Positions 14,981-39,703 of a stretch of 52,801 bases of DNA are shown one piece after another. Under the pieces are notes generated by a model. That model worked only from the letters and a program-made list of their open reading frames with translations, was not told where the DNA came from and made no database searches. The first letter of the stretch is position 1. Each line of letters opens with the position of its first letter. The DNA is from Bacteroidales bacterium. Lineage in GTDB: Bacteria; Bacteroidota; Bacteroidia; Bacteroidales; VadinHA17. The position numbers and the translations under genes were made by a program. The DNA is taken from contig PLMC01000116.1 of the NCBI GenBank assembly GCA_003141495.1, positions 22,145 to 74,945 on the forward strand, read 5' to 3'.

Positions 14981-16351
14981 ATGATAAATAAATTTAAGCA
15001 ATCCTTTCTGGTCTTTTTTAAAATTAAAGACGCGAGAACAAAGAGTGTTATGAAAGGTTCTTTTTCTATGTTACTCTCCTCTTTAATAGGAAATCTTACC
15101 AGATTAGGTTTAGTAATGATTTTATCGCGATATTATTCCAAGGAACAATTCGGAATATGGGCTACTGTTACTTCGACTGCTGCTGTTATCGCATATGGAG
15201 ATTTCGGAATAATTAATGCCCTGAGAAATAAACTGAGTCTGCTTATTGTGCTTGGAGATGAGGGACTGAAAGAAGCAAAGAAATATTTTTTCTCGGCGTT
15301 TATTTTTTTCATGGTTTTAAGCCTCATCTTGTCGGCTGCAGTAATTATTCTCAGTAAATTTCTTTCTTTTGACTTATTATTTAAAACAGATAACCAGCTT
15401 TTAAAAAATCAGGGAGTATATATTATTTTATGGATTCAATTTTTATTTTTTATTAATATTCCTCTCTCGATGGGAGTAGTATCCTTTTTCTCATTTCAAG
15501 AGTCAAAATTCAGTGCCCTATTTTCTACAATTCAGACTTTTGCCTCATTTTGCGTTGTCGCTATTTTTACTTTTTTCAATCTTTCTATTGTTGCAATTTC
15601 CATCGGATATTTTGTCTCAAGTACTCTTGTGAACGGAATTGGCACATTGTACTTTCTGAAACGCAGAAGATGGTTTAGTTACACTTTCATTTTTAAAGAA
15701 TTTTATAATCATTTAAAAGAGTTGATAGCGACTGGCGTAAAATTTATGGGTTTTCAATTGACAAACAGTTTTTTACAAAATGCGGGAACAATTCTGGCCA
15801 GCTCTTTTCTGGGATTAAGTGTCGCTGCAGAATTCAATATGGTTCAAAAATTATACGCTTTTTTTTCCGGAATGTACGTAAGTATGTTTAATCCTATTTG
15901 GGGAGGATATGCTGAAGCTGCTGCAAAAAAAGATTGGAGATGGTGTAAAAGGACTCTTAACATTTCACTAATCGGAACAATAATTATATTTACTTTGGCT
16001 ATTGTAGGACTTTATTTCTTTGGTAATTACCTTCTGGTATTCTTAGCAGGGAAAAGTTATATTTCTGAAAGGATACTATTTTTACTTCTTGGTTTGACGT
16101 CTTTATTTTATATTTTATTTTCAGCAGCTACAATTTTGCAGAATGCAACAAACAAAATCAATCTATTACTTATTTCGACTGTTGCTGCTTGTTTCTTAGT
16201 TTTTCCTATAAGCAAAATTTTTATTGCTAAGTTCCAGGTTGCAGGTATTGCGATCTCAACTAGTCTGCTATGGTTTACACTAACATGTTTATTAACCATG
16301 CAAACATATTATATCATAAATAAAAATCAAAAAAAATCAATTAATAACTGA
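14981..16351 (+). CDS. wzx: Wzx-type polysaccharide flippase (first of two)
   Basis: A 456-residue polytopic membrane protein of the MOP superfamily with about a dozen hydrophobic segments. The N-terminus (MKGSFSMLLSSLIGNLTRLG, then SRYYSKEQFGIWATV) is the usual O-antigen translocase opening. It should move undecaprenyl-linked repeat units across the inner membrane. A second MOP-type gene lies at 28.6 kb. The 128 bases before it hold no recognisable signal. Confidence 0.88.
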   Translation: MINKFKQSFLVFFKIKDARTKSVMKGSFSMLLSSLIGNLTRLGLVMILSRYYSKEQFGIWATVTSTAAVIAYGDFGIINALRNKLSLLIVLGDEGLKEAKKYFFSAFIFFMVLSLILSAAVIILSKFLSFDLLFKTDNQLLKNQGVYIILWIQFLFFINIPLSMGVVSFFSFQESKFSALFSTIQTFASFCVVAIFTFFNLSIVAISIGYFVSSTLVNGIGTLYFLKRRRWFSYTFIFKEFYNHLKELIATGVKFMGFQLTNSFLQNAGTILASSFLGLSVAAEFNMVQKLYAFFSGMYVSMFNPIWGGYAEAAAKKDWRWCKRTLNISLIGTIIIFTLAIVGLYFFGNYLLVFLAGKSYISERILFLLLGLTSLFYILFSAATILQNATNKINLLLISTVAACFLVFPISKIFIAKFQVAGIAISTSLLWFTLTCLLTMQTYYIINKNQKKSINN

Positions 16352-17569: not shown

Positions 17570-18823
17570 ATGATGGATCAGAAACAGTACAGAGTATATT
17601 TTCCTATAATTTTCCTGCTTAGTTGGTTAGGGCTCACTATATTTATCTTTATTTTTGGGCCATACAAATATAAAATAACTCATTCCTTTGTTTTTTATTC
17701 TTACTTACTTGCAGTTCATATAGCACTTCTTCTGGGATATTTAAGAGGACAAAGATCCTATGGACGAGGCTTTCAGATTAAAATTGACTATTATCGATTC
17801 GTTAAAATATCAATTATAATTTCATTTTCTTATTTCATTCTGAAATTGATCCTGACTTTTGGCGGTGATCTCCGTCATTTTAGCGAAACCTTTAAAAATG
17901 CATCCAAAACATACCTGAGTAGTAGCGTTAGACATTCAAATATCTTTTCATATCTGGATATTATTTTTACTCCAATTTCATTGATTGCAATAACAAACGC
18001 GATATTTAGTTATAAGAATTTAGGCAGAAGGTACAGGTATAGTGTTTTTATTTTGATTTTGTTTTCAATTGCATCTGCTATTGGTTCAGCTACACGTAGT
18101 GGTATTGTACAGACTTTAATAATATCCATGGCAGCTTTTTCTCTGGGTGTTTATAAAAAGAATATTATCCTGAAATATTATCATAAAGTTCTGATATTCG
18201 TATTTGGTGCAACCTTAGTTATTGGATTTTTAATATATTCTTCATTATTGACTAATACACGAGGTGGAAGAATAGTAAACAACCCTTTGACAAAAGAACC
18301 ACCTCGCAAGGATTTTTTCTTAACCAGGGTCACTTCACCTGAATTACATCCACTAATAAACAATGTCTCCTTCTATATATCTCATTCTTATTACCGGCTA
18401 AATAAAGCGATGAACCTACCTTTTAAAGGCCTCGGTTTTGGACTTTCAAATTCCTATTTTATTATGGATAATATTGAGTCATTAACAGGTTGGTCGGGGC
18501 TTAAAAATATTTCATATGGAGTTCGGTTGGATAAAGGTATCGGAAGCGGGTATGGTTTATATTGGTCCACATTTTATACATGGATAGCTTCAGATTTTAC
18601 GTTCCCAGGTACAATAATTGTGGTATTCTTTATAGGTTATTTTTTTTCATTGGCATTGAAAGACACACTCTTTAGTCAAAACCCTCTCTCCGTGACAGTT
18701 TTTTGTTCGTTTTTTTATTTTATTTTTCATTTTGCATTTAATAATCCACTACAGGATGGTGCAGGCCTTACGACGTATTTATTTGTTCCGGTTATATGGT
18801 TTATCTTTAGAAAAAAGTTTTAA
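17570..18823 (+). CDS. wzy: O-antigen polymerase, Wzy-type
   Basis: A 417-residue integral membrane protein with about ten or more hydrophobic segments. It has a large hydrophilic loop after the middle helices (about residues 225-300) that contains TNTRGGR and a Pro/Lys-rich stretch. This topology, with little sequence conservation, is typical of Wzy, which joins repeat units in the periplasm. SATRSG in a membrane-proximal position is common in this family. It lies among glycosyltransferases. Two other polymerase/ligase-type proteins occur in the locus, so which is the true polymerase is not certain. Confidence 0.75.
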   Translation: MMDQKQYRVYFPIIFLLSWLGLTIFIFIFGPYKYKITHSFVFYSYLLAVHIALLLGYLRGQRSYGRGFQIKIDYYRFVKISIIISFSYFILKLILTFGGDLRHFSETFKNASKTYLSSSVRHSNIFSYLDIIFTPISLIAITNAIFSYKNLGRRYRYSVFILILFSIASAIGSATRSGIVQTLIISMAAFSLGVYKKNIILKYYHKVLIFVFGATLVIGFLIYSSLLTNTRGGRIVNNPLTKEPPRKDFFLTRVTSPELHPLINNVSFYISHSYYRLNKAMNLPFKGLGFGLSNSYFIMDNIESLTGWSGLKNISYGVRLDKGIGSGYGLYWSTFYTWIASDFTFPGTIIVVFFIGYFFSLALKDTLFSQNPLSVTVFCSFFYFIFHFAFNNPLQDGAGLTTYLFVPVIWFIFRKKF

Positions 18824-19859: not shown

Positions 19860-20873
19860 ATGGGAAAGTATAACAAGAAGGTATTATTAATAACTGGTGG
19901 CACGGGTTCTTTCGGAAATGCTGTGCTACAGAAGTATATTTCGACAGATATTGCTGAAATAAGAATCTTCAGCCGTGATGAAAAGAAGCAGGATGATATG
20001 CGCAGGAAGTATAATAGTGATAAAGTAAAATACTATATAGGTGATGTCAGAAATTTTAATAGTGTCAATCAAGCCATGGTAGGAGTGGATTATGTTTTTC
20101 ATGCAGCCGCTTTAAAACAGGTTCCTTCATGCGAGTTTTATCCTATGGAAGCCATACAAACAAATGTTCTGGGTGCTGAAAATGTTCTTGAATCAGCTTT
20201 TCGGAATAAGGTGAAACGAGTAGTGGTTTTAAGTACTGATAAGGCTGTCTATCCTATTAATGTTATGGGTTTATCCAAAGCCATGATGGAAAAACTGATG
20301 GTCGCAAAATCCCGTCTGCTTAACCCTGACGAATTGGTTTTTTGTGGCACCAGGTATGGTAATGTAATGGCCTCCAGAGGATCCGTAATTCCATTGTTTG
20401 TCCAGCAGATAAAACAGGGATCCCCGTTAACAATTACTGATCCTAAAATGACAAGGTTTATGATGTCATTGCCTGAATCGATAGACCTGGTGGAATTTGC
20501 CTTTGCCAATGCAAAACCTGGAGATATTTTTGTGCAAAAAGCACCGGCATCAACTATTGAAGATATTGCTCTGGCAATTAAGGATATTTTCAACGCATCA
20601 AATGAGATAAAGATTATTGGTACCAGACATGGAGAAAAACTATATGAATCACTTTGCAACCGGGAAGAAATGGCAAAAGCAATTGATTTAGAATATTTTT
20701 ATAGGATTCCTGCAGATAACCGTGATCTGAATTATGGTAAATATTTTGAGAATGGTGATGTTAAAGCATCTGCATTGGATGATTATAATTCTCATAATAC
20801 CATACGGCTAACCTTTGAACAAGTTAAAGAAAAAATTCTTAGTCTTGATTATATTAAAGGTCAACTTGCATAA
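19860..20873 (+). CDS. UDP-GlcNAc 4,6-dehydratase (5-inverting), FnlA/WbjB/CapE/WbvB-like
   Basis: A 337-residue soluble SDR that starts the route from UDP-GlcNAc to UDP-L-6-deoxy-HexNAc sugars. The cofactor motif is TGGTGSFGNAV, the catalytic segment is LSTDKAVYPINVMGLSKAMMEK (Met in the SDR Tyr position, usual for this subfamily), and RYGNVMASRGSVIPLF is characteristic. It begins 1 base after the previous stop. It is followed by an RmlD-like reductase and a UDP-GlcNAc 2-epimerase, the standard three-gene cassette. It differs from the membrane-bound WbpM-like protein at the left edge, which keeps the D configuration. Confidence 0.93.
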   Translation: MGKYNKKVLLITGGTGSFGNAVLQKYISTDIAEIRIFSRDEKKQDDMRRKYNSDKVKYYIGDVRNFNSVNQAMVGVDYVFHAAALKQVPSCEFYPMEAIQTNVLGAENVLESAFRNKVKRVVVLSTDKAVYPINVMGLSKAMMEKLMVAKSRLLNPDELVFCGTRYGNVMASRGSVIPLFVQQIKQGSPLTITDPKMTRFMMSLPESIDLVEFAFANAKPGDIFVQKAPASTIEDIALAIKDIFNASNEIKIIGTRHGEKLYESLCNREEMAKAIDLEYFYRIPADNRDLNYGKYFENGDVKASALDDYNSHNTIRLTFEQVKEKILSLDYIKGQLA

Positions 20874-20905
20874 TTCATCTATTTTCATTAATTATTTATA
20901 AAGTC

Positions 20906-21784
20906 ATGAGAATTCTTATTTTAGGCGCTTCAGGACTAATTGGGCATAAATTATTACAGGAATTGTCCATGGATTTTGAAGTCTTTGGAACTCTTCATAA
21001 ATCGAAGGATTCTTACGGTAATATATCATTATTCTCTGGACACAATATCATTGATAATGTAAATGTTGCTGAATTTGAGGTACTAAAGGGCATATTGTAT
21101 GCCGTAAATCCCGATATCATACTTAATTGCGTTGGGATCACTAAACGAAAAGATGAAATCAATGACTCTTTTACAGCATTGACTATTAATTCAGTTTTTC
21201 CACATCAGCTGGCTAATTGGGCAAAGAACAAGGGGAAAAGAATAATTCATTTTAGTACCGATTGTGTTTTCGATGGAAAAGTTGGAAATTACGATGAAAC
21301 AAGTTTAACAACTGCTGAGGATATTTATGGCAGAACGAAGGCTTTGGGTGAAATCAGGTATGATCATACACTAACAATTCGTTCATCATTTATCGGACAG
21401 GAATTATTTGGAAAAACTGAATTTCTTGAATGGTTGATGTCTCAAAAAGGAAAACAAGTCAAAGGATTTAGAAATACCTTATATTCGGGCGTTTCCACAA
21501 TATTTATGGCGCGTGTGGTCAGGAATATTATCCTGAATTATTCAAACCTTTCCGGGTTATATCAATTGGCACCTGAAAAACCAATATCAAAATATGATCT
21601 TATTTGTATTGCTAAAGAAAAATATAATCTAAATGTTGATATTGTTCCAGATGATGAGCATGTTCATTTTCCGACTCTGAATGGATCTAAATTAAGAAGG
21701 GAAATCAATCTGATTGTGCCTTCATGGAAGGAAATGATGACTGAATTAAGTTCGGTTAAAGATTTCTATCTTGACCTTAAATAA
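20906..21784 (+). CDS. RmlD-like 4-ketoreductase, WbvR-like
   Basis: A 292-residue SDR of the RmlD family. It has GASGLIGHKL, STDCVFDGKVG, and YGRTKALGE with the Tyr/Lys pair. By position it reduces the 4-keto intermediate made by the preceding enzyme. CapF/FnlB, the FucNAc-pathway reductase, has an additional C-terminal cupin domain and is about 370 residues; this protein ends after the SDR fold. It is therefore closer in layout to WbvR, which gives UDP-L-RhaNAc and then UDP-L-QuiNAc. The family is firm; the L-QuiNAc choice is inferred. Confidence 0.82.
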   Translation: MRILILGASGLIGHKLLQELSMDFEVFGTLHKSKDSYGNISLFSGHNIIDNVNVAEFEVLKGILYAVNPDIILNCVGITKRKDEINDSFTALTINSVFPHQLANWAKNKGKRIIHFSTDCVFDGKVGNYDETSLTTAEDIYGRTKALGEIRYDHTLTIRSSFIGQELFGKTEFLEWLMSQKGKQVKGFRNTLYSGVSTIFMARVVRNIILNYSNLSGLYQLAPEKPISKYDLICIAKEKYNLNVDIVPDDEHVHFPTLNGSKLRREINLIVPSWKEMMTELSSVKDFYLDLK

Positions 21785-21822
21785 ATCAAAATATTTATAA
21801 AGAAAAATAAAATTACCACTTT

Positions 21823-22944
21823 ATGAAAATAATGACAATTGTTGGAACACGTCCGGAAATAATCAAAATGAGCAGGGTTATAGCAGAATTAAGTAAATAT
21901 GTTAATCATGTTTTAGTACATACCGGACAAAATTATGATTATGAGCTTAATGAGATTTTTTTCGAGAATCTGGGGGTAAAAAAACCTGATTATTTTCTTG
22001 ATGTTGCAGGAAAGAACGTAGCTTCTACAATTGCGAACGTTATTTCAAAATCAGACGAAGTATTTGAGCTTGAAAAGCCGGATGCTGTTTTACTTTATGG
22101 GGATACAAATAGTTGCCTTGCTGTAATTACAGCTAAGAGAAGAAAAATACCTGTATTCCATTTTGAAGCCGGAAACAGATGTTTTGATCAGAGAGTTCCT
22201 GAAGAATTGAACCGGAAAGTATTAGATCATCTGAGTGACATTAATTTCCCTCTTACAGAGCACGCAAGAAGATATTTACTGGCTGAAGGAATCAAACCTG
22301 ATACAATAATAAAACCGGGTTCTCCTATGAAAGAAATTCTTGATTTCCATTCAAAAAGTATTAATGCGTCTGATGTTTTGAAAAGACTCAATCTCGAAAA
22401 AAACAAATTTTTTATTGTCAGTGCACATAGGGAAGAAAATATAGACTCTGAAGAAAATTTTAATGACCTGCTTGATTCATTAAATGCAATTTCAGAAAAT
22501 TATCATTACCCGGTAATTGTATCGACACACCCAAGAACAAAAATTAAGCTTGAAAGCTTAAAAAGAAAAGATATGAATCCATTGATACAATTTTTAAAAC
22601 CTCTTGGATTTTTTGACTATAACAAATTACAGCAAAACGCTTATTGTGTTATTTCTGATAGCGGAACTATTTCAGAAGAATCTTCGATCTTGAATTTCCC
22701 CGCTATCACAATAAGACAGGCTCACGAACGACCGGAAGGAATGGACGAAGGGACACTTATAATGAGCGGGCTTAAAAAGGAAAGAATTTTGCAATCCATC
22801 GACATTATGGTATCTCAATTTTCGAAAGAAAAAAGAGTTACCAGAATTGTACCTGATTATGATGTAGATAATTTTTCAATAAAAGTCGTACGGGTTATAA
22901 TTAGTTATATTGATTATGTAAATAGGATAGTTTGGAGAAAATAG
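21823..22944 (+). CDS. UDP-GlcNAc 2-epimerase family enzyme, FnlC/WbvD/WbjD-like
   Basis: A 373-residue GT-B fold epimerase. GTRPEIIKMS opens the protein, then HTGQNYDYELNEIFFENL, FHFEAGNRCFDQRVPEELNRK with conserved acidic residues, SAHREENID and DSGTISEES. It probably carries out the C-2 inversion that ends the UDP-L-6-deoxy-HexNAc route (L-QuiNAc or L-FucNAc), as the third member of the three-gene cassette. The long FDQRVPEELNRK segment is shared with the WbjD branch rather than with WecB. Confidence 0.92.
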   Translation: MKIMTIVGTRPEIIKMSRVIAELSKYVNHVLVHTGQNYDYELNEIFFENLGVKKPDYFLDVAGKNVASTIANVISKSDEVFELEKPDAVLLYGDTNSCLAVITAKRRKIPVFHFEAGNRCFDQRVPEELNRKVLDHLSDINFPLTEHARRYLLAEGIKPDTIIKPGSPMKEILDFHSKSINASDVLKRLNLEKNKFFIVSAHREENIDSEENFNDLLDSLNAISENYHYPVIVSTHPRTKIKLESLKRKDMNPLIQFLKPLGFFDYNKLQQNAYCVISDSGTISEESSILNFPAITIRQAHERPEGMDEGTLIMSGLKKERILQSIDIMVSQFSKEKRVTRIVPDYDVDNFSIKVVRVIISYIDYVNRIVWRK

Positions 22945-24262: not shown

Positions 24263-26674
24263 ATGAAGATTTTTCCCGGTTCTATTAAAACAGAATGGAT
24301 ACTACCTCGTATCTTAATAAGTACAGTAATATTTTATTTCCTGAAGACCGCGTTTTGGCCTCTGACATTTCTTTTCATTGCAGCTTATGTTATAACCGTA
24401 TTGCTGCTTTTATTTAAAATTGACCGGGACTTTAAATTCTTGCAGTTTATTACTGAATTCAGGCTTCCTTTATTACTGGCAGGAATATTTGTTCTTGAAT
24501 ATTTAGTCAGGCATCAATTCTCAGTTAAAATTGTTCAAAAAGACATATTATTGATACTGGTCCTCTTTTCACTTTTTTATTTTCTCTACTGGAGACGATC
24601 TTTATTAACCGGGGAATCTGTCAGATCCTTTTTTCTTCAACTGACAATAGTTACTATCAGTCTCATTTCAATCTTAAACCTGTTTTATCAATTTTTTCAT
24701 GTCTTAATTCCATCCGATCTATTGTTGAAAATCAATATTTCAGATGGATTTTCTATTGCCAATGACTATAATTTTTTCTGTTTATTTTTGATTTTTGGCC
24801 TGTTAATCGTGAATAATAAGGACAAAAATGATTTTCTAAACTATAATTTGCCAAAAAACCAAATTGTTTTTCTCAGTTTAATCTTTGTTTTAAACATTAT
24901 CATTTCTGCATCGAGGCGAGCGATATTTGTATTGATTATTTTATTGATTTTTAAAGTTATTTCAAGTGTGTTGCGTGGTGGAAAACAGAATACAAATGCT
25001 CAATATTTAAAAAATCTAATCAGAATTCTAGGTCTGGGCATTCTCTCTTTAGCCACATTGATTTTTGTTATCCATTCTTTCCCAAAACAGAATCTAAAGA
25101 ATCTGGCAGCGAAATATTCTTCTGTAACCGGAGTGAATGAGAGCCGATTCACTGAAAAATTTTTATGGAATAGAGAATCAATGTTGCCTTTGGATAGAAG
25201 ATATATTATTGACAAAGCATCACTTGAAGGAGAGGAAAAATTTTGGAGATGTATATCTGCACCCGGAACATCTATCATGTACATTAACACTAAATATGGG
25301 AAAAGTATCAAGGTGACAAGAATTGGTGGTGGAAATGATGGATATTCCTTGCAATATGTTGGTCCTGAAATATTGTATTACGCTAACCATACTTACAGAA
25401 TCTCTTTTAAAATCAAATTCTTTGGAGGAGATTTTAATTCTTTTAATGTTGGATTGTGGGTGGATGATGGCAATAAAGGAATTGCATATTGCGGCGCCTT
25501 ACAAAAAAAATCAATTCCTGTTGGCGACGGATGGTATACCTGTACATCTGAATATACATTTATAGATAATCAATTTGGTCTTACCGGATTTATAAATTCT
25601 GTAGCAGATAAAACATCATTCGTTATTTCGGATTTTGAGTTGGTTGATTTGAATTTTGATCCTTCACTTCCCCGATATGTATTTGAAATAAAGGGGAATG
25701 AAAATATTGGTGACTGGTTGGGTAAACACAATATTCCATATTCCGGCAATAATCTAATAAACAATGGACGTTTTGAATCTGGAAAGAATTTCTGGCGATG
25801 TACATTAGATTCATCAATAAGCTTTAAAATCGAGAATATACAAAATGTTAAATGTGCATTTATTTCAAGGGGAGCAGGGAATGGTGGTGATTGGTCGCTG
25901 TTTAATATTGGACGACCAGTCAGATATTTCGCAAATAATGAATATCAGATTGCATTTAAAGTTTTACCGATAAAGCCCAGAACAATACCTTTTAAGGTTG
26001 GTTTTTGGGTCGATGAGGGAGAAGGAGTACAAAATAATTTAAAGTTAAGGATTGATACTCTCAAAAACGGATGGTTAGAAGCTAAAACAAGCTATATTTT
26101 TAAAAATAATCATTCTGATCTTTTGTTTCTGATAAATTCACAGGCAAGTTATTCACAGTTCTTCATCACAGACATAAGCTTAATTAATTTAACTCAAACT
26201 CAATATCAGACGGATATAACAGCAGATAAGCCTGACAACATAAAGAAAGAATCATTTTTTTCAGACAGATCATCCCGTTGGATCTATGCCATAGAGATCT
26301 GGAAAACCAAATTCAATACCATTGATAAAATATTTGGCCACGGTTTTGACTATCTTGAATGGTATGGAGAAAAGTTCATGGGGAATGCTAATAATTATGA
26401 TTGGCCACATAATCCGTTTATTTCCATTTTTCTGTACTCAGGGATAGTTGGATTGTTCCTCTATTCTGTATTACTTGCAAGGGTTTCTTTTCTCTATTTC
26501 AAGTACCGGCTTAATTATGGTGTTGCTGCTATCGGTTTTCTAATCACGCTCTTCTTCTCATTTTTCAGTGCAGGAAGTCCTTTTGACCCTCCGATAATGG
26601 GTTTTTTTATTCTTTTGCCATTTTTCATACACTCCATTCACAAAAATGTTAATGACACGAATCAAAAAATCTAA
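24263..26674 (+). CDS. O-antigen ligase/polymerase-like membrane protein with two internal jelly-roll-like modules
   Basis: An 803-residue protein, about twice the length of ordinary Wzy/WaaL proteins. Residues 1-270 form the N-terminal membrane helices (SASRRA at 215-220 is a common ligase-family position). About 700-790 form the last helices, with WPHNPFI at 714-720 matching the ligase HN motif. Between them lie two modules of about 145 residues, at 320-464 and 497-643, related to each other: FWRC at 327 and 510, YYANHTYRISFKI against YFANNEYQIAFKV, VGLWVDDG against VGFWVDEG, and INS followed by FVISDFELVDL against FFITDISLINL. They look like beta-sandwich carbohydrate-binding modules (CBM4/9-like) placed in the periplasmic loop. 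The membrane parts fit Wzy_C; the module identity is inferred. Confidence 0.8.
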   Translation: MKIFPGSIKTEWILPRILISTVIFYFLKTAFWPLTFLFIAAYVITVLLLLFKIDRDFKFLQFITEFRLPLLLAGIFVLEYLVRHQFSVKIVQKDILLILVLFSLFYFLYWRRSLLTGESVRSFFLQLTIVTISLISILNLFYQFFHVLIPSDLLLKINISDGFSIANDYNFFCLFLIFGLLIVNNKDKNDFLNYNLPKNQIVFLSLIFVLNIIISASRRAIFVLIILLIFKVISSVLRGGKQNTNAQYLKNLIRILGLGILSLATLIFVIHSFPKQNLKNLAAKYSSVTGVNESRFTEKFLWNRESMLPLDRRYIIDKASLEGEEKFWRCISAPGTSIMYINTKYGKSIKVTRIGGGNDGYSLQYVGPEILYYANHTYRISFKIKFFGGDFNSFNVGLWVDDGNKGIAYCGALQKKSIPVGDGWYTCTSEYTFIDNQFGLTGFINSVADKTSFVISDFELVDLNFDPSLPRYVFEIKGNENIGDWLGKHNIPYSGNNLINNGRFESGKNFWRCTLDSSISFKIENIQNVKCAFISRGAGNGGDWSLFNIGRPVRYFANNEYQIAFKVLPIKPRTIPFKVGFWVDEGEGVQNNLKLRIDTLKNGWLEAKTSYIFKNNHSDLLFLINSQASYSQFFITDISLINLTQTQYQTDITADKPDNIKKESFFSDRSSRWIYAIEIWKTKFNTIDKIFGHGFDYLEWYGEKFMGNANNYDWPHNPFISIFLYSGIVGLFLYSVLLARVSFLYFKYRLNYGVAAIGFLITLFFSFFSAGSPFDPPIMGFFILLPFFIHSIHKNVNDTNQKI

Positions 26675-26679
26675 TTATC

Positions 26680-27570
26680 ATGAAAATATTAATCACTGGA
26701 AAAAACAGTTTTGTCGGAAGAAATTTTATTAAATATTCAAGATTCAGGGATACTGATGAGATTTCACTTTTCGAAAATAAGCCTGAAGATATTGATTTTA
26801 GTAAGTATGATGTTGTAATTCATCTTGTTGCCATTGTTCATCAGAAAACAACAATCACTGAAAATCAATATTTTATTATAAATCGTGACCTTTGTCTTAA
26901 GGTAGCCGAACTGGCTAAACAGGCCGGAGTAAAGCAATTTATCTTCCTTAGCACTGTAAAAGTTTATGGAAAATTCATTGCCGGATCAGAGCCATGGAAC
27001 GAAAAATCATTGTGTTTACCTGATGATGCTTATGGGAAAAGTAAATATGAGGCAGAACTAGCTCTGAGGAAGCTGGAAGATAATAGTTTTACTGTTTCAA
27101 TTATCAGAACACCACTGGTATATGGTGAATATGTGAGAGCAAATATGTTAAGCATTATGAGGCTTGTAGACAGAACACATATTTTACCATTTAAAAATGT
27201 AAACAACAGGAGGAGTTTTACCGGCGCAGAAAACCTTGTCAGTTTTATTGACAGGATAATAGAAAAAAGAGCATCAGGCATCTTTATCGCAATGGACGAT
27301 AATGCAATCTCGACATCTGAACTTGTTAAAATGATAGCTGAAAACCTTGGAAAAAAAATCATCTTATTCAAAATTCCGGAATTTTTTATAAAAATTGGAA
27401 TGTCTGTATTGCCAAGTATTTTTGATCGCTTATATGGCTCTTTCGAAATGGATAATAGCAGAACGCTTGAAATCCTTGATTTCAGACCTCCTATACCAAC
27501 GAGCGAAGGCATAAAAAAAATGGTTAAATCATTTGAAAAGAAAAATATATCTCCGGAATCTTCAAGATGA
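26680..27570 (+). CDS. WbpV-like UDP-4-keto-6-deoxy-HexNAc reductase
   Basis: A 296-residue extended SDR with TGKNSFVGRNF (cofactor), HLVAIVHQ, FLSTVKVYGK and YGKSKYEAE (Tyr/Lys). These match WbpV/WreQ proteins, which reduce the product of a WbpM-type dehydratase to UDP-D-QuiNAc. It begins 5 bases after the 803-residue protein and is followed by a WbpL-like initiating transferase, the usual pairing. A UDP-sugar 4-epimerase role is the alternative. The likely upstream partner is the truncated gene at the left edge. Confidence 0.82.
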   Translation: MKILITGKNSFVGRNFIKYSRFRDTDEISLFENKPEDIDFSKYDVVIHLVAIVHQKTTITENQYFIINRDLCLKVAELAKQAGVKQFIFLSTVKVYGKFIAGSEPWNEKSLCLPDDAYGKSKYEAELALRKLEDNSFTVSIIRTPLVYGEYVRANMLSIMRLVDRTHILPFKNVNNRRSFTGAENLVSFIDRIIEKRASGIFIAMDDNAISTSELVKMIAENLGKKIILFKIPEFFIKIGMSVLPSIFDRLYGSFEMDNSRTLEILDFRPPIPTSEGIKKMVKSFEKKNISPESSR

Positions 27571-27607: not shown

Positions 27608-28594
27608 ATGAAGACAATATTATTTCTAATTGCATTCCTGGTAGTTGTCTCCTATCTCCTTACCTGGATTATTAAAAACTACTCCACTAAAAAAAATATT
27701 CTTGATATACCAAATGATAGAAGTTCCCATTCATTTCCGATACCAGTGGGTGGAGGATTGGCAATAGTTATCTCATGGTATATCGGGATTACTTTTTTGT
27801 TTTGTACAGGGACTTTAGACCATAGCTTGTATTTCGCATTACTAAGCGGAATACTGTTAGCAGGCATCGGACTCCTTGATGATATATTTGGTCTGCGGCC
27901 TTTAATAAGGCTAACAGCTCAGACAAGCACTGCCATTATCTCACTTATATTACTTCAAGGAATTCAACCTGTGCTTTTTTTTGGAAAAGATATATTCCCA
28001 ATGTTTGTAATTTATATACTTACAGTTATTGGAATGGTATGGTTTATAAATTTGTATAATTTTCTTGACGGAATTGACGGATACGCTTCATTTGAGGCAA
28101 TTGCATTAGGCTTAGCATTTTACCTATTTACAGGTCAGATTATCTCCCTTGTATTATGTGCTTCAGTTGTTGGTTTTCTGATATGGAACTGGCCTAAAGC
28201 CAGGATTTTTATGGGTGATGTCGGAAGCACACAATTAGGTTATATTATTGTCGTACTTGGTATTTATTTTCATAATCAACATAAGCTTTCATTTATATAC
28301 CTGTTAATTCTCTCAGCTCCATTCTGGTTCGATGCTACTCTGACATTGATCAGGCGATGGAGAAATAAAGAGAAACTAAGCCAGGCACATAAAAAGCATA
28401 TATATCAACGTCTTGTACAATCAGGTTTTTCGCATCTTAAAACTGATTTCTTATTAACTATTGTAAACCTGATTTTCATTCTTTTGGTATTTATTAGTAT
28501 CAAATTCAACATGTTACAAATACCATTTTTATTGTTATCAATACTGATACTATATCTTATTGCACTTTATACAGATAAAAGAAAGCCCTTTTAA
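27608..28594 (+). CDS. Undecaprenyl-phosphate HexNAc-1-phosphate transferase, WbpL/WecA-like
   Basis: A 328-residue polytopic membrane enzyme of the polyprenyl-phosphate glycosylphosphotransferase (Glycos_transf_4) family. Motifs are LLDDIFGLRP (Asp-rich, Mg binding), NFLDGIDGYA, FMGDVGSTQLGY and the cytoplasmic AHKKHIYQRL, all in order. SSHSFPIPVGGG near the N-terminus is typical of the WbpL branch. It should start repeat-unit synthesis by putting a HexNAc-1-phosphate, possibly D-QuiNAc given the WbpV-like neighbour, on undecaprenyl phosphate. Confidence 0.92.
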   Translation: MKTILFLIAFLVVVSYLLTWIIKNYSTKKNILDIPNDRSSHSFPIPVGGGLAIVISWYIGITFLFCTGTLDHSLYFALLSGILLAGIGLLDDIFGLRPLIRLTAQTSTAIISLILLQGIQPVLFFGKDIFPMFVIYILTVIGMVWFINLYNFLDGIDGYASFEAIALGLAFYLFTGQIISLVLCASVVGFLIWNWPKARIFMGDVGSTQLGYIIVVLGIYFHNQHKLSFIYLLILSAPFWFDATLTLIRRWRNKEKLSQAHKKHIYQRLVQSGFSHLKTDFLLTIVNLIFILLVFISIKFNMLQIPFLLLSILILYLIALYTDKRKPF

Positions 28595-28615: not shown

Positions 28616-29935
28616 GTGTCGCCTACATCTTTTTCAAAAGTGAATATTAAAACTAAATACTTTCCTTTTCACCTTCTCAGATCAGAGCTGCTCAGGAGTG
28701 CATCAGTACTGATTTCAGGAACAATAGCTGCTCAACTTATATCCATTCTCCTTCAGCCTGTTTTGAGAAGGCTCTTTACACCTGAATCATTTGGTATCTA
28801 TTCAGTTTATCTGAGCCTTGTGGGTATGATTTTAATTCTGTGTTCTTTACGGTATGATGACACAATAGTTCTGCCAAAATCCGATAAAGAATCTACTAAC
28901 CTTTTGGCCCTCTCTTTGATTATAAACTTTTTTTTCAATCTGTCCATTCTCCTTATTGTAATAATACTAGGCAGAAGAATTATTTCTTTTCTTAATCTTC
29001 CAAAAAATTTTCCGGTAAGTATTCTTTATATTATTCCTTTAGGAGCTTTCCTTTTTAGCACCTGCCAGTCATTAAACTCATGGTTGATCAGGAGACGCAA
29101 GTATTTTTCTATTTCAGTAAATAAACTTGCACGTCGTAGTTCAGAAGGTGTTGCTCAGATAAGTTTTGCACTCATTAAATCTTTTAATGGGTTGATATAT
29201 AGTGACATTATTGGACAGACTGCTAATGTGTTAACTGTTGCATTCCAAACAAAAAAAAATGAATTAAATCTTAAGTTAGTCAGTATTATTAAATTAAAAT
29301 ATGTCTTTCGTAAATATGCTGAGTTTCCTAAATTCAACCTTATTCCTGCTTTTATGAGTTCTTGCAGTTATCTTCTGCCTCCAATTTTTATTAATAAATT
29401 TTATTCACCTGAAACTGCCGGATTTTTTGATCTTTCTAAATTATTGCTCTCCATACCATTAGCTTTTATTGCTTCTTCTATCTCAAGCGTCCTGCTTCAA
29501 AGGATATCTGAAAGATTCAATAAAAAAGAAAGCTTTCTGACTGAACTCAAACCCATCCTATATATTGTAGGTTTGATCGCAATAATTGAGATCTCAACAA
29601 TAATCCTATTTGGTGAAGATCTGTTTAAAATTGTATTTGGATCTCAATGGATAACCTCCGGGAAAATTTCAAAAATAATGGTATGGTCTTTTGCATTTAA
29701 TTTTATAGCTTCTTCCTTTACCAGTATTTTTGTTTCAATGCGAAGAATAAGAACTTATAGCATCTGGCAGTTTGTCTATTTTGTTTCCATTCTCTCACTT
29801 TTGTTATTCAGACATTTACCTTTTACTGATTTTATTAAAATATATGTCTCGATAGAGTTATTTTGTTACTTTCTGGTAACTCTTATTATGTTTCTTATGG
29901 TTTACCAGTATGAATCAGCCATGTTGAAAAGTTGA
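28616..29935 (+). CDS. Second MOP-family polysaccharide flippase
   Basis: A 439-residue polytopic membrane protein with about a dozen hydrophobic segments. LRSASVLISGTIAAQLISI then RLFTPESFGIYSVYLS is the usual opening of lipopolysaccharide-biosynthesis MOP proteins. The start codon is GTG; no in-frame ATG occurs before the first helix. It is only distantly similar to the flippase at 15.0 kb. It could export a second glycan or a modified unit, or be the flippase used with the WbpL-like transferase beside it. Confidence 0.85.
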   Translation: MSPTSFSKVNIKTKYFPFHLLRSELLRSASVLISGTIAAQLISILLQPVLRRLFTPESFGIYSVYLSLVGMILILCSLRYDDTIVLPKSDKESTNLLALSLIINFFFNLSILLIVIILGRRIISFLNLPKNFPVSILYIIPLGAFLFSTCQSLNSWLIRRRKYFSISVNKLARRSSEGVAQISFALIKSFNGLIYSDIIGQTANVLTVAFQTKKNELNLKLVSIIKLKYVFRKYAEFPKFNLIPAFMSSCSYLLPPIFINKFYSPETAGFFDLSKLLLSIPLAFIASSISSVLLQRISERFNKKESFLTELKPILYIVGLIAIIEISTIILFGEDLFKIVFGSQWITSGKISKIMVWSFAFNFIASSFTSIFVSMRRIRTYSIWQFVYFVSILSLLLFRHLPFTDFIKIYVSIELFCYFLVTLIMFLMVYQYESAMLKS

Positions 29936-38422: not shown

Positions 38423-39703
38423 ATGCTTAAGGAAGAAATAATACTACAACGTAGCAGGGGCGACTTCTCTTACCTTGCAGCTATTCTGATTATGGTAGTT
38501 TTACCTATCCATTACAAGTACATTCCCCCGCTTATGATCTTGCTTTGTTTGACATGGATAAGTGAAAACTATTTTAAATTTGGGGAAATATTCAGATACG
38601 ATTCAAAGTATAGAAATCTTCTGATTTCATTTATGTTGTTTTTTCTATGGCAAGTAATAAGCGTATTATATTCTTCTGATTTTTACATGGGATGGTCAAA
38701 TGTTTTTGGAAGATTGTCACTATTAATTTTCCCTTTAATTTTATTTAATCCGGGAGCACGGATCAAATCAAATACTTTGAATCTACTTAGGGTCTTTGCT
38801 ATTAGTACATTAGTTTATGTTATTTCATGTTTTGTATATGCACTTTACCGTTCCCTCTATTTCAGTAACGGAGGATTGTTTTTCAATCCACATCCCACGG
38901 ATGCTTATTGGATTAATTACTTTTTTGGTCCCGATCTGGTATATTCAATTCATCCTTCATATCTGGCTATGTATGTTTTGATCTCTGTCTTCATTTCTTT
39001 AGAATCGTGGTACGACAAATCAATGAAAAAGCGGTTTAGGATCTGGTGGTTGATTATCGGAAGTTTATTATTTATCTCAATATATTTTATTTCTTCCAGG
39101 GCAGGTATACTGGCTGCAATTGCTACGATATCGTTTTACGCGATTAACAAGATCATAAACCGTAAAAAATCAAGAATAATCTGGATGTCCATAATTATAA
39201 TTTTAGTACTTTCTTTGCCATTGATACGGAATAATGATCGTGTTAATTTATTGCTTCAGGGTTTTTCGAAAGAACAGGGATATGAACTAAGACGACAGGA
39301 TGAGAGATTAATAGTCTGGAAATCTGCAATGCAAATTATTAAAAATCATCCGATAATTGGAGTTGGTATTGGCGATGTCAGGACTGAATTAGTAAAGGAG
39401 TATATCAGAATCGGCGAAGATAAACTTGAAAAAGAGAGGTTAAATGCTCATAATCAGTTTCTTGAAGTGCTCCTTGAAGATGGTCTGGTTGGCTTTTCGT
39501 TTTTTTTACTGGTATTTGGATCTTTGATTTTTATAGCGATAAACGAAAAGAATTTAATGCTGGGATTGTTTATCATTATGATAATCATTTTTTTTATGTT
39601 TGAGACTGTACTGTACAGATTAGCAGGAGTCTCTTTCTTCTCCTTATTTTCTTTCCTGTTATTGCATAAAAATGGACCGGCGCATGAATTAGTACAAAAA
39701 TAA
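38423..39703 (+). CDS. O-antigen ligase/polymerase family protein (Wzy_C)
   Basis: A 426-residue polytopic membrane protein with clear Wzy_C features: HPSYLAMY at 177-184, SSRAG at 224-228, HPIIGVGIGD at 309-318 and HNQFLE at 343-348, which holds the conserved ligase His. This is the pattern of WaaL-like ligases that join finished glycan to a lipid or protein acceptor. It is the last forward gene of the locus, 7 bases after the aminotransferase, and is followed by a terminator. It is the best ligase candidate of the three polymerase/ligase proteins here. Confidence 0.85.
   Translation: MLKEEIILQRSRGDFSYLAAILIMVVLPIHYKYIPPLMILLCLTWISENYFKFGEIFRYDSKYRNLLISFMLFFLWQVISVLYSSDFYMGWSNVFGRLSLLIFPLILFNPGARIKSNTLNLLRVFAISTLVYVISCFVYALYRSLYFSNGGLFFNPHPTDAYWINYFFGPDLVYSIHPSYLAMYVLISVFISLESWYDKSMKKRFRIWWLIIGSLLFISIYFISSRAGILAAIATISFYAINKIINRKKSRIIWMSIIIILVLSLPLIRNNDRVNLLLQGFSKEQGYELRRQDERLIVWKSAMQIIKNHPIIGVGIGDVRTELVKEYIRIGEDKLEKERLNAHNQFLEVLLEDGLVGFSFFLLVFGSLIFIAINEKNLMLGLFIIMIIIFFMFETVLYRLAGVSFFSLFSFLLLHKNGPAHELVQK

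Follow-up and report, generated by a model that had tools for sequence, protein, structure and literature searches.

How Wzy-type polymerases hold the growing chain, set its length and choose a partner is an open question, usually approached via separate co-polymerases. The locus described here raises it within a single polypeptide. It lies in a 52,801-nucleotide stretch of DNA (hereafter the window) from a Bacteroidales bacterium of the VadinHA17 lineage (assembly GCA_003141495.1, contig PLMC01000116.1, positions 22,145 to 74,945 of the forward strand), in which one gene encodes a membrane protein of the Wzy_C superfamily carrying, in its presumed periplasmic loop, two modules predicted to fold like carbohydrate-binding modules (CBMs). 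What might such modules do inside a sugar-chain transferase? The gene comprises the following parts (TM, predicted transmembrane helix):

24263..26674, + strand: entire gene (ATG start), 803-residue Wzy_C-superfamily membrane protein with two predicted β-sandwich modules in the periplasmic loop
24263..25087, + strand: N-terminal membrane part, residues 1–275, predicted TM1–TM9, with the S217-R218-R219 motif of the Wzy_C core
25184..25657, + strand: module 1, residues 308–465, predicted β-sandwich of type A
25733..26197, + strand: module 2, residues 491–645, predicted β-sandwich of type A, with Pfam CBM_4_9 above its cut-off at residues 496–627
26255..26674, + strand: C-terminal Wzy_C half, residues 665–803, with R669, R672-W673, H716-N717 and predicted TM10–TM12

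The reading frame is open over 803 codons and is longer, as an earlier note on this DNA had remarked, than that of ordinary Wzy/WaaL proteins (about 407–436 residues in the plain Wzy_C proteins aligned here). The same note had delimited two related modules at residues 320–464 and 497–643, with shared landmarks about 183 residues apart. The relatedness holds (29% identity over 162 residues, BLASTP expectation value (E) 8e-22), with limits that become slightly wider by profile, and the spacing is 183 residues for FWRC (residues 327 and 510), Y.AN..Y.I.FK (372 and 555) and VG.WVD.G (396 and 579), but 180 for INS (444 and 624). A chance repeat as the origin of this likeness is ruled out by a shuffle control, in which the Smith–Waterman score of 192 between the modules compares with a mean of 32 (standard deviation 5.3) and a maximum of 58 in 1000 shuffles. 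The gene is present as a single copy in its own genome, where the type A profile found no copies beyond these two modules.

The AlphaFold2 model of the protein, built on 34 sequences (mean predicted local distance difference test score, pLDDT, 78.9; predicted template modelling score, pTM, 0.62), places strands at residues 314–462 and 511–642, which form two β-sandwiches. In the Foldseek comparison, in which 18 of 718 matches reach E 0.001, the best match in the Protein Data Bank (PDB) is the CBM22-1/CBM22-2 tandem 4xup (E 8.7e-9 over 369 columns); CBM22 4xuo (TMt 0.68) and CBM4 3p6b (TMt 0.62) at single-module level and the surface glycan-binding protein 7kwb are also among those reaching E 0.001, with CBM16 just above that value. 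Pfam assigns module 2 to CBM_4_9 (29 bits versus a cut-off of 25.9) and gives no match for module 1. The structure prediction and CBM comparison proposed in the earlier note thus speak for its assignment of the modules to CBM4/9-type β-sandwiches, and a predicted jelly-roll fold of the CBM4/9/22-like kind is supported; from this fold and family we infer that the modules may bind glycans. Several observations pull the other way. The model confidence of module 1 is below that of module 2, an insecticidal Cry protein stands at rank 3 of the Foldseek list and other β-rich proteins also match. CBM_4_9 is found at E up to 0.01 in just 6 of 34 family members, and of four type A carriers inspected singly, L052 and L040 score below its cut-off and L036 and L030 have no match to it. 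Compared with PDB sequences, the type A profile gives weak matches, the best at E 0.0075 (a GH26 entry) and CBM4 3p6b at 0.24.

As to the membrane core, the helices of the model read as 12 transmembrane passes, with the insert occupying one long loop (about residues 276–717) between TM9 (245–271) and TM10 (718–747), in agreement with its placement by the earlier note between the N-terminal helices and the C-terminal helices of the His-Asn motif; the modules directly precede the Arg...His-Asn part of the Wzy_C loop. Hydropathy gives the same long gap between hydrophobic stretches, but 10 stretches are counted, not 12. The model of a relative (L045) likewise has 12 helices with a long loop after TM9, presumably periplasmic in both models, and 12 helices with a long loop after TM9 are also given for a solved ligase in PMC10920833. 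Family membership is most evident in homologues without an insert: those of 432, 465 and 471 residues pass Pfam Wzy_C (PF04932; cut-off 31.7) at 46.8, 44 and 53.7 bits, a profile of these three matches the plain Wzy_C profile with 98% probability (E 7.4e-14), and Wzy_C matches at E up to 0.01 occur in 25 of 34 family members. In an alignment of 34 members with or without insert (A2, from which one fused member, at L032, was left out), S217, R219, R669, G692, G694 and P715-H716-N717-P718 are invariant, among others. When the three insert-free members are aligned with six plain Wzy_C proteins and Escherichia coli WaaL, the WaaL residues R288, H338, N339, G349 and G352 are invariant; through these members R669 corresponds to R288 and H716-N717 to H338-N339 of E. 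coli WaaL, while WaaL R215 aligns with the first Arg of the SRR motif (R218 in the window protein), the invariant Arg being its neighbour R219. Arg288 and His337 are listed among the essential WaaL residues in PMC10269572; this His337 may be H338 of the annotated protein.

Against this assignment stand the Wzy_C score of the window protein itself (16.3 bits over residues 661–734, below the cut-off), the absence of the R669 position from the fused member (L032:15724-17676), and the failure of modular-family profiles to match either E. coli WaaL or the solved WaaL 7tpg. Foldseek gave no proof of a WaaL-like core, WaaL being absent among the best 50 of the 718 matches of the window model and the best 50 of the 1079 of L045. 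The sequence comparisons nevertheless relate the membrane parts to Wzy_C proteins, as the earlier note had held, and its interpretation is supported on both points that it had set beforehand as capable of overturning it, fold and core. The gene product would accordingly be named, at the level of sequence, an undecaprenyl-pyrophosphate–glycan transferase of the Wzy_C superfamily, probably with the corresponding enzymatic activity.

The protein does not stand alone. A protein search of 60 related genomes gave matches in 16: its own, 12 of the 35 others from the genus and 3 of the 24 from the order. Scanning genome contigs with the family alignment yielded 34 loci, of which 33 carry titles of Bacteroidota metagenome-assembled genomes and 1 that of a Bacillota isolate. 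After removal of 7 of the 42 distinct matches (two cut-off fragments, L060 and L063; four plain Wzy_C proteins; and a weak match of 525 residues, L027) and addition of the window protein, the family has 36 members, nearly all from draft assemblies. The search for Wzy_C proteins with inserts in this loop, which the earlier note had suggested, was thus productive: 32 of the 36 carry inserts, a share that comes from one 60-genome search and one pattern-based scan and is not an unbiased frequency. Of the four members without a module, three pass Wzy_C, and the remaining one, a fusion with a sugar transferase, has a Pfam match to the transferase family alone. This fusion (L032:15724-17676, 651 residues) joins a Wzy-like membrane part to a Bac_transf sugar transferase of the initiating type, at a locus that also holds a one-module family member.

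That this long reading frame is a non-functional fusion, produced by decay or by faulty assembly, is scarcely credible. Such an origin could be suspected from the draft state of nearly all assemblies and the weak Wzy_C score of the window protein; it is already disfavoured by the conserved homologues, namely the 36 distinct members and the residues invariant across the 34 aligned sequences, and by the 803 open codons. Another assembly holds a copy with 82% identity over 781 residues, which makes an assembly artefact unlikely, and on this copy together with the 36 members that artefact was rejected.

Most relatives carry in the same loop a second module type, B. By architecture the 36 members divide into B (16), AA (5), none (4), BB (3), BBBB (3), BAB (2), A (2) and BBB (1), type A thus occurring in 1–2 copies and type B in 1–4. 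A sequence relation between the two types was looked for and not found (HHalign probability 0.1%). In the AlphaFold2 model of L045, a type B carrier (pLDDT 82.8, pTM 0.80), strands at 344–481 read as a β-sandwich, and type B is by prediction also CBM-like: its Foldseek matches are weak, none at E 0.001 or better, with many MAM, CBM35, CBM16, CBM22, porphyran-binding CBM and BcsB entries, and others of unrelated fold, among the best 50 of 1079. When 395 Bacteroidota genomes sampled across the phylum were scanned with a profile of the C-terminal core (E up to 1e-8), a strong match came from the own genome alone and weak ones from two other genomes, in open frames of 446 and 407 residues; type A gave two further matches in the sample, own genome included, weak only (E 1.0e-5 and 7.6e-5), and type B none, in a sample from which its positive control was absent. 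Within this sample the modular family is narrow.

The two module types bear on the rather improbable explanation that the modules bind no glycan and are β-sandwich scaffolds for protein–protein contact with a ligase, a flippase or an export complex. The fold class includes MAM-type domains, which are among the best type B matches, and glycan binding by the modules is a prediction from fold and family. Against a scaffold role, the best matches of the window modules are CBM22, then CBM4 and CBM16, Pfam calls module 2 CBM_4_9, and two module types with no sequence relation detected, both predicted β-sandwiches, have been taken up in the same loop.

The modules also appear to move between enzymes. 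On a tree of the core with the loop excluded (a quick method, with 12 of 33 inner branches open and the root placed on the Bacillota member), a minimum of 5 changes is needed for module type and 10 for full architecture. Two members, L022:393-3314 (− strand) and L040:5706-8549 (+ strand), which form one clade (SH-aLRT 95), each have a type A module nested within one of type B. For the inner module of L040, identity to module 2 of L014 amounts to 74% in protein and to 77.7% in DNA over 498 bases (E 1e-113), whereas the cores of L040 and L014 share only 32% identity. Recombination that carried a module from one enzyme to another best explains this disparity.

What the enzyme may make is approached through its neighbours, for which the labels WecA, Wzx, WbuB and Fnl are presumptive, resting in part on Pfam or NCBIfam matches:

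26680..27570, + strand: NAD-dependent epimerase/dehydratase of the short-chain dehydrogenase/reductase (SDR) type, the next gene and a recurrent neighbour
27608..28594, + strand: WecA-like initiating phosphoglycosyltransferase (Pfam Glycos_transf_4), recurrent neighbour
28616..29935, + strand: Wzx-type flippase (Wzx2), recurrent neighbour
38423..39703, + strand: plain Wzy_C protein of 426 residues; the profile of its relatives finds the solved WaaL 7tpg
14981..16351, + strand: second Wzx-type flippase (Wzx1), upstream cluster
17570..18823, + strand: polytopic protein of 417 residues beside Wzx1, without a Pfam match, presumed Wzy-type polymerase

Starting from what sequence or prediction directly supports, that is, the modules, their predicted fold, their position in the loop, the family, module exchange and the neighbourhood, we infer an enzymatic activity, glycan binding, a polymerase rather than a ligase and a role in loading. 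In the proposed mechanism, the catalytic periplasmic loop of a Wzy_C transferase would have taken up two CBM4/9/22-like jelly-roll modules, which would project into the periplasm next to the active site and retain a glycan there, be it the acceptor, the chain under elongation or a repeat unit after flipping. In this way the modules could assist substrate loading, prevent release of the chain or determine which acceptor is used, doing in cis what elsewhere falls to a separate co-polymerase. The modular enzyme would polymerize the glycan that the neighbouring WecA-like protein initiates and Wzx2 flips, and the plain WaaL-like Wzy_C protein downstream may be the ligase of its product. To a Wzy_C-type polymerase with glycan-holding, CBM-like loop modules in cis we give a little less than an even chance.

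Downstream of the modular gene in the window, the order is SDR, WecA-like, Wzx2, glycosyltransferases and plain Wzy_C, followed by genes on the opposite strand. The order SDR, WecA-like, Wzx2 recurs in many relatives, some with intervening genes, and the plain protein follows farther downstream where the contig reaches. Among 58 genomes of the genus, the modular protein is present in 18 and a strong plain match in 16, strong being defined as E under 1e-80, a limit chosen once the gap to 1.5e-28 had been noticed. Both are present in 14 (Fisher p 3e-8, in a test that takes no account of relatedness or contig breaks), and 9 of these genomes have them on one contig, about 9–15 kb apart. Six genomes depart from this pattern but cannot decide it, because contig ends lie nearby: in G010 and G073 the contig ends before the expected place of the modular gene, and in G005, G006, G029 and G030 within about 7 kb downstream of it; in none of the six was the missing partner found on another contig, bar a plain-like fragment in G005. 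The profile of the plain neighbours matches 7tpg at E 3.9e-11 and, with 65% probability (E 6e-5), E. coli WaaL; that this profile, and not that of the modular family, finds the solved WaaL points to the plain protein as the ligase. A Wzy_C domain alone is not diagnostic of a ligase, since it is present in 82% of Wzy proteins tied to β-linked O-antigens, according to PMC12502699, which cites others for this figure.

The principal alternative, less probable than the polymerase though to be taken seriously, is a ligase-type enzyme that would attach a completed chain to lipid A-core, to a protein or to the second glycan, made by the adjacent cluster, with the modules recognizing this acceptor or the chain. 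It draws on the region upstream of the modular gene, a variable cluster with polytopic proteins of its own (in the window, Wzx1 and the 417-residue protein); the modular gene stands at the junction of this cluster and the more conserved WecA–Wzx2 cluster. At least two further upstream polytopic proteins (by hydropathy, 340 residues or more with at least 7 stretches) are found in 9 of the 11 genus loci with at least 15 kb of upstream sequence read, G026 and G015 having one, and the modular protein is then an additional polymerase/ligase-type protein. Moreover, L036 has upstream, beside the modular gene, a Wzx and a protein matching Pfam O-ag_pol_Wzy (32 versus 26.6 bits), and upstream Wzy_C proteins in L032, L047 and L048 (the last on the same contig as G062) score 29.6, 31.3 and 26.5 bits, all below the cut-off of 31.7. 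These extra Wzy-type proteins mean that the modular protein need not be the polymerase; nor is its pairing with the plain protein exclusive, given that 49 of the 58 genomes of the genus have Wzy_C matches, some as many as 10. Opposed to a ligase is the kinship of the plain Wzy_C protein of the same cluster with the solved WaaL, and the insert-free Flavobacteriales loci L058 and L059, where a single initiating transferase and a single Wzx accompany two Wzy_C-type proteins, fit a polymerase plus a ligase, the two roles not being told apart. The neighbourhood comparison did not separate polymerase from ligase; on its evidence we hold the polymerase to be the likelier, because the plain neighbour is the WaaL-like one.

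A polymerase that holds its glycan in cis also invites a look at the co-polymerase Wzz (PF02706), which at E up to 0.001 is found in 34 of the 58 genus genomes. At the same threshold the contig that bears the modular gene lacks a Wzz match in all 18 genomes, and four of these, G008, G029, G030 and G062, have none anywhere, an absence that depends on fragmented draft assemblies and a divergent family and is weak evidence in favour of the proposed mechanism.

Other genes of the window concern sugar supply and initiation. Besides the two Wzx-type flippases (14981-16351 and 28616-29935), one initiating transferase was seen among the open reading frames scanned, which were part of the total. Consecutive nucleotide-sugar genes at 19860-22944 match Pfam Polysacc_synt_2, RmlD_sub_bind and Epimerase_2; the trio resembles the FnlA/FnlB/FnlC set for UDP-FucNAc, which is presumably the sugar concerned. 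At 125-1591, a 488-residue protein has an SDR part from residue 153, best PseB- and FnlA-like but below the cut-offs, and an N-terminal stretch with weak NeuD and EPS-transferase similarity.

Beyond this locus, the modular family forms a series on one core, with 0, 1, 2, 3 or 4 modules of two types, one nested, and glycan length and composition across the series would test the role of the β-sandwiches in processivity or specificity. We speculate, with low confidence, that it represents a class of enzymes, either polymerases of sugar chains or ligases that join glycans, whose cargo-binding loops can be exchanged, in which two module types have been inserted, multiplied, nested and recombined, and in which the work of Wzz/Wzc (loading, length control) would be done in cis, or the chain of the variable cluster would be joined to the glycan of the conserved one. 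Module exchange would allow fast change of surface polysaccharides and may provide a handle for engineering polysaccharide synthesis, the signs of swapping suggesting a way to re-tune what sugar-chain builders hold.

The modular protein is worth comparing with known systems. No O-antigen ligase or polymerase with carbohydrate-binding modules was found described in the open-licence PubMed Central literature, as far as its searched text extends, which does not contradict the statement of the earlier note that no characterized example was known to it. With WaaL/Wzy_C proteins (PF04932, 7tpg) the modular protein has in common the predicted 12-helix core, the long periplasmic loop after TM9 and the Arg and His-Asn columns shared by its family and E. 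coli WaaL. Unlike the eight aligned plain proteins of about 407–436 residues, it has about 370 residues more, with two modules, and its family has diverged so far that profiles built from it miss WaaL. The nearest worked parallel is functional and by description: the jellyroll of Wzc is reported in PMC12881504 as a module binding capsular polysaccharide (CPS) that is proposed to guide repeat units to Wzy and without which CPS is almost lost. There, however, the jellyroll resides in a separate protein and acts in trans, whereas here the modules are inside the transferase. Likewise, work on BcsB of cellulose synthase (PMC11379886) describes periplasmic carbohydrate-binding-like regions coupled to a membrane enzyme that makes a glycan, and BcsB chains are among the weak Foldseek matches of type B; in contrast to the modular protein, BcsB is a separate subunit of a processive synthase and not a Wzy_C enzyme. 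Finally, the CBM22, CBM4 and CBM4_9 modules of xylanases and cellulases have the same predicted fold, and module 2 falls in the same Pfam family, but these matched CBMs belong to degrading enzymes, whereas the modules described here sit in a biosynthetic enzyme of the membrane.

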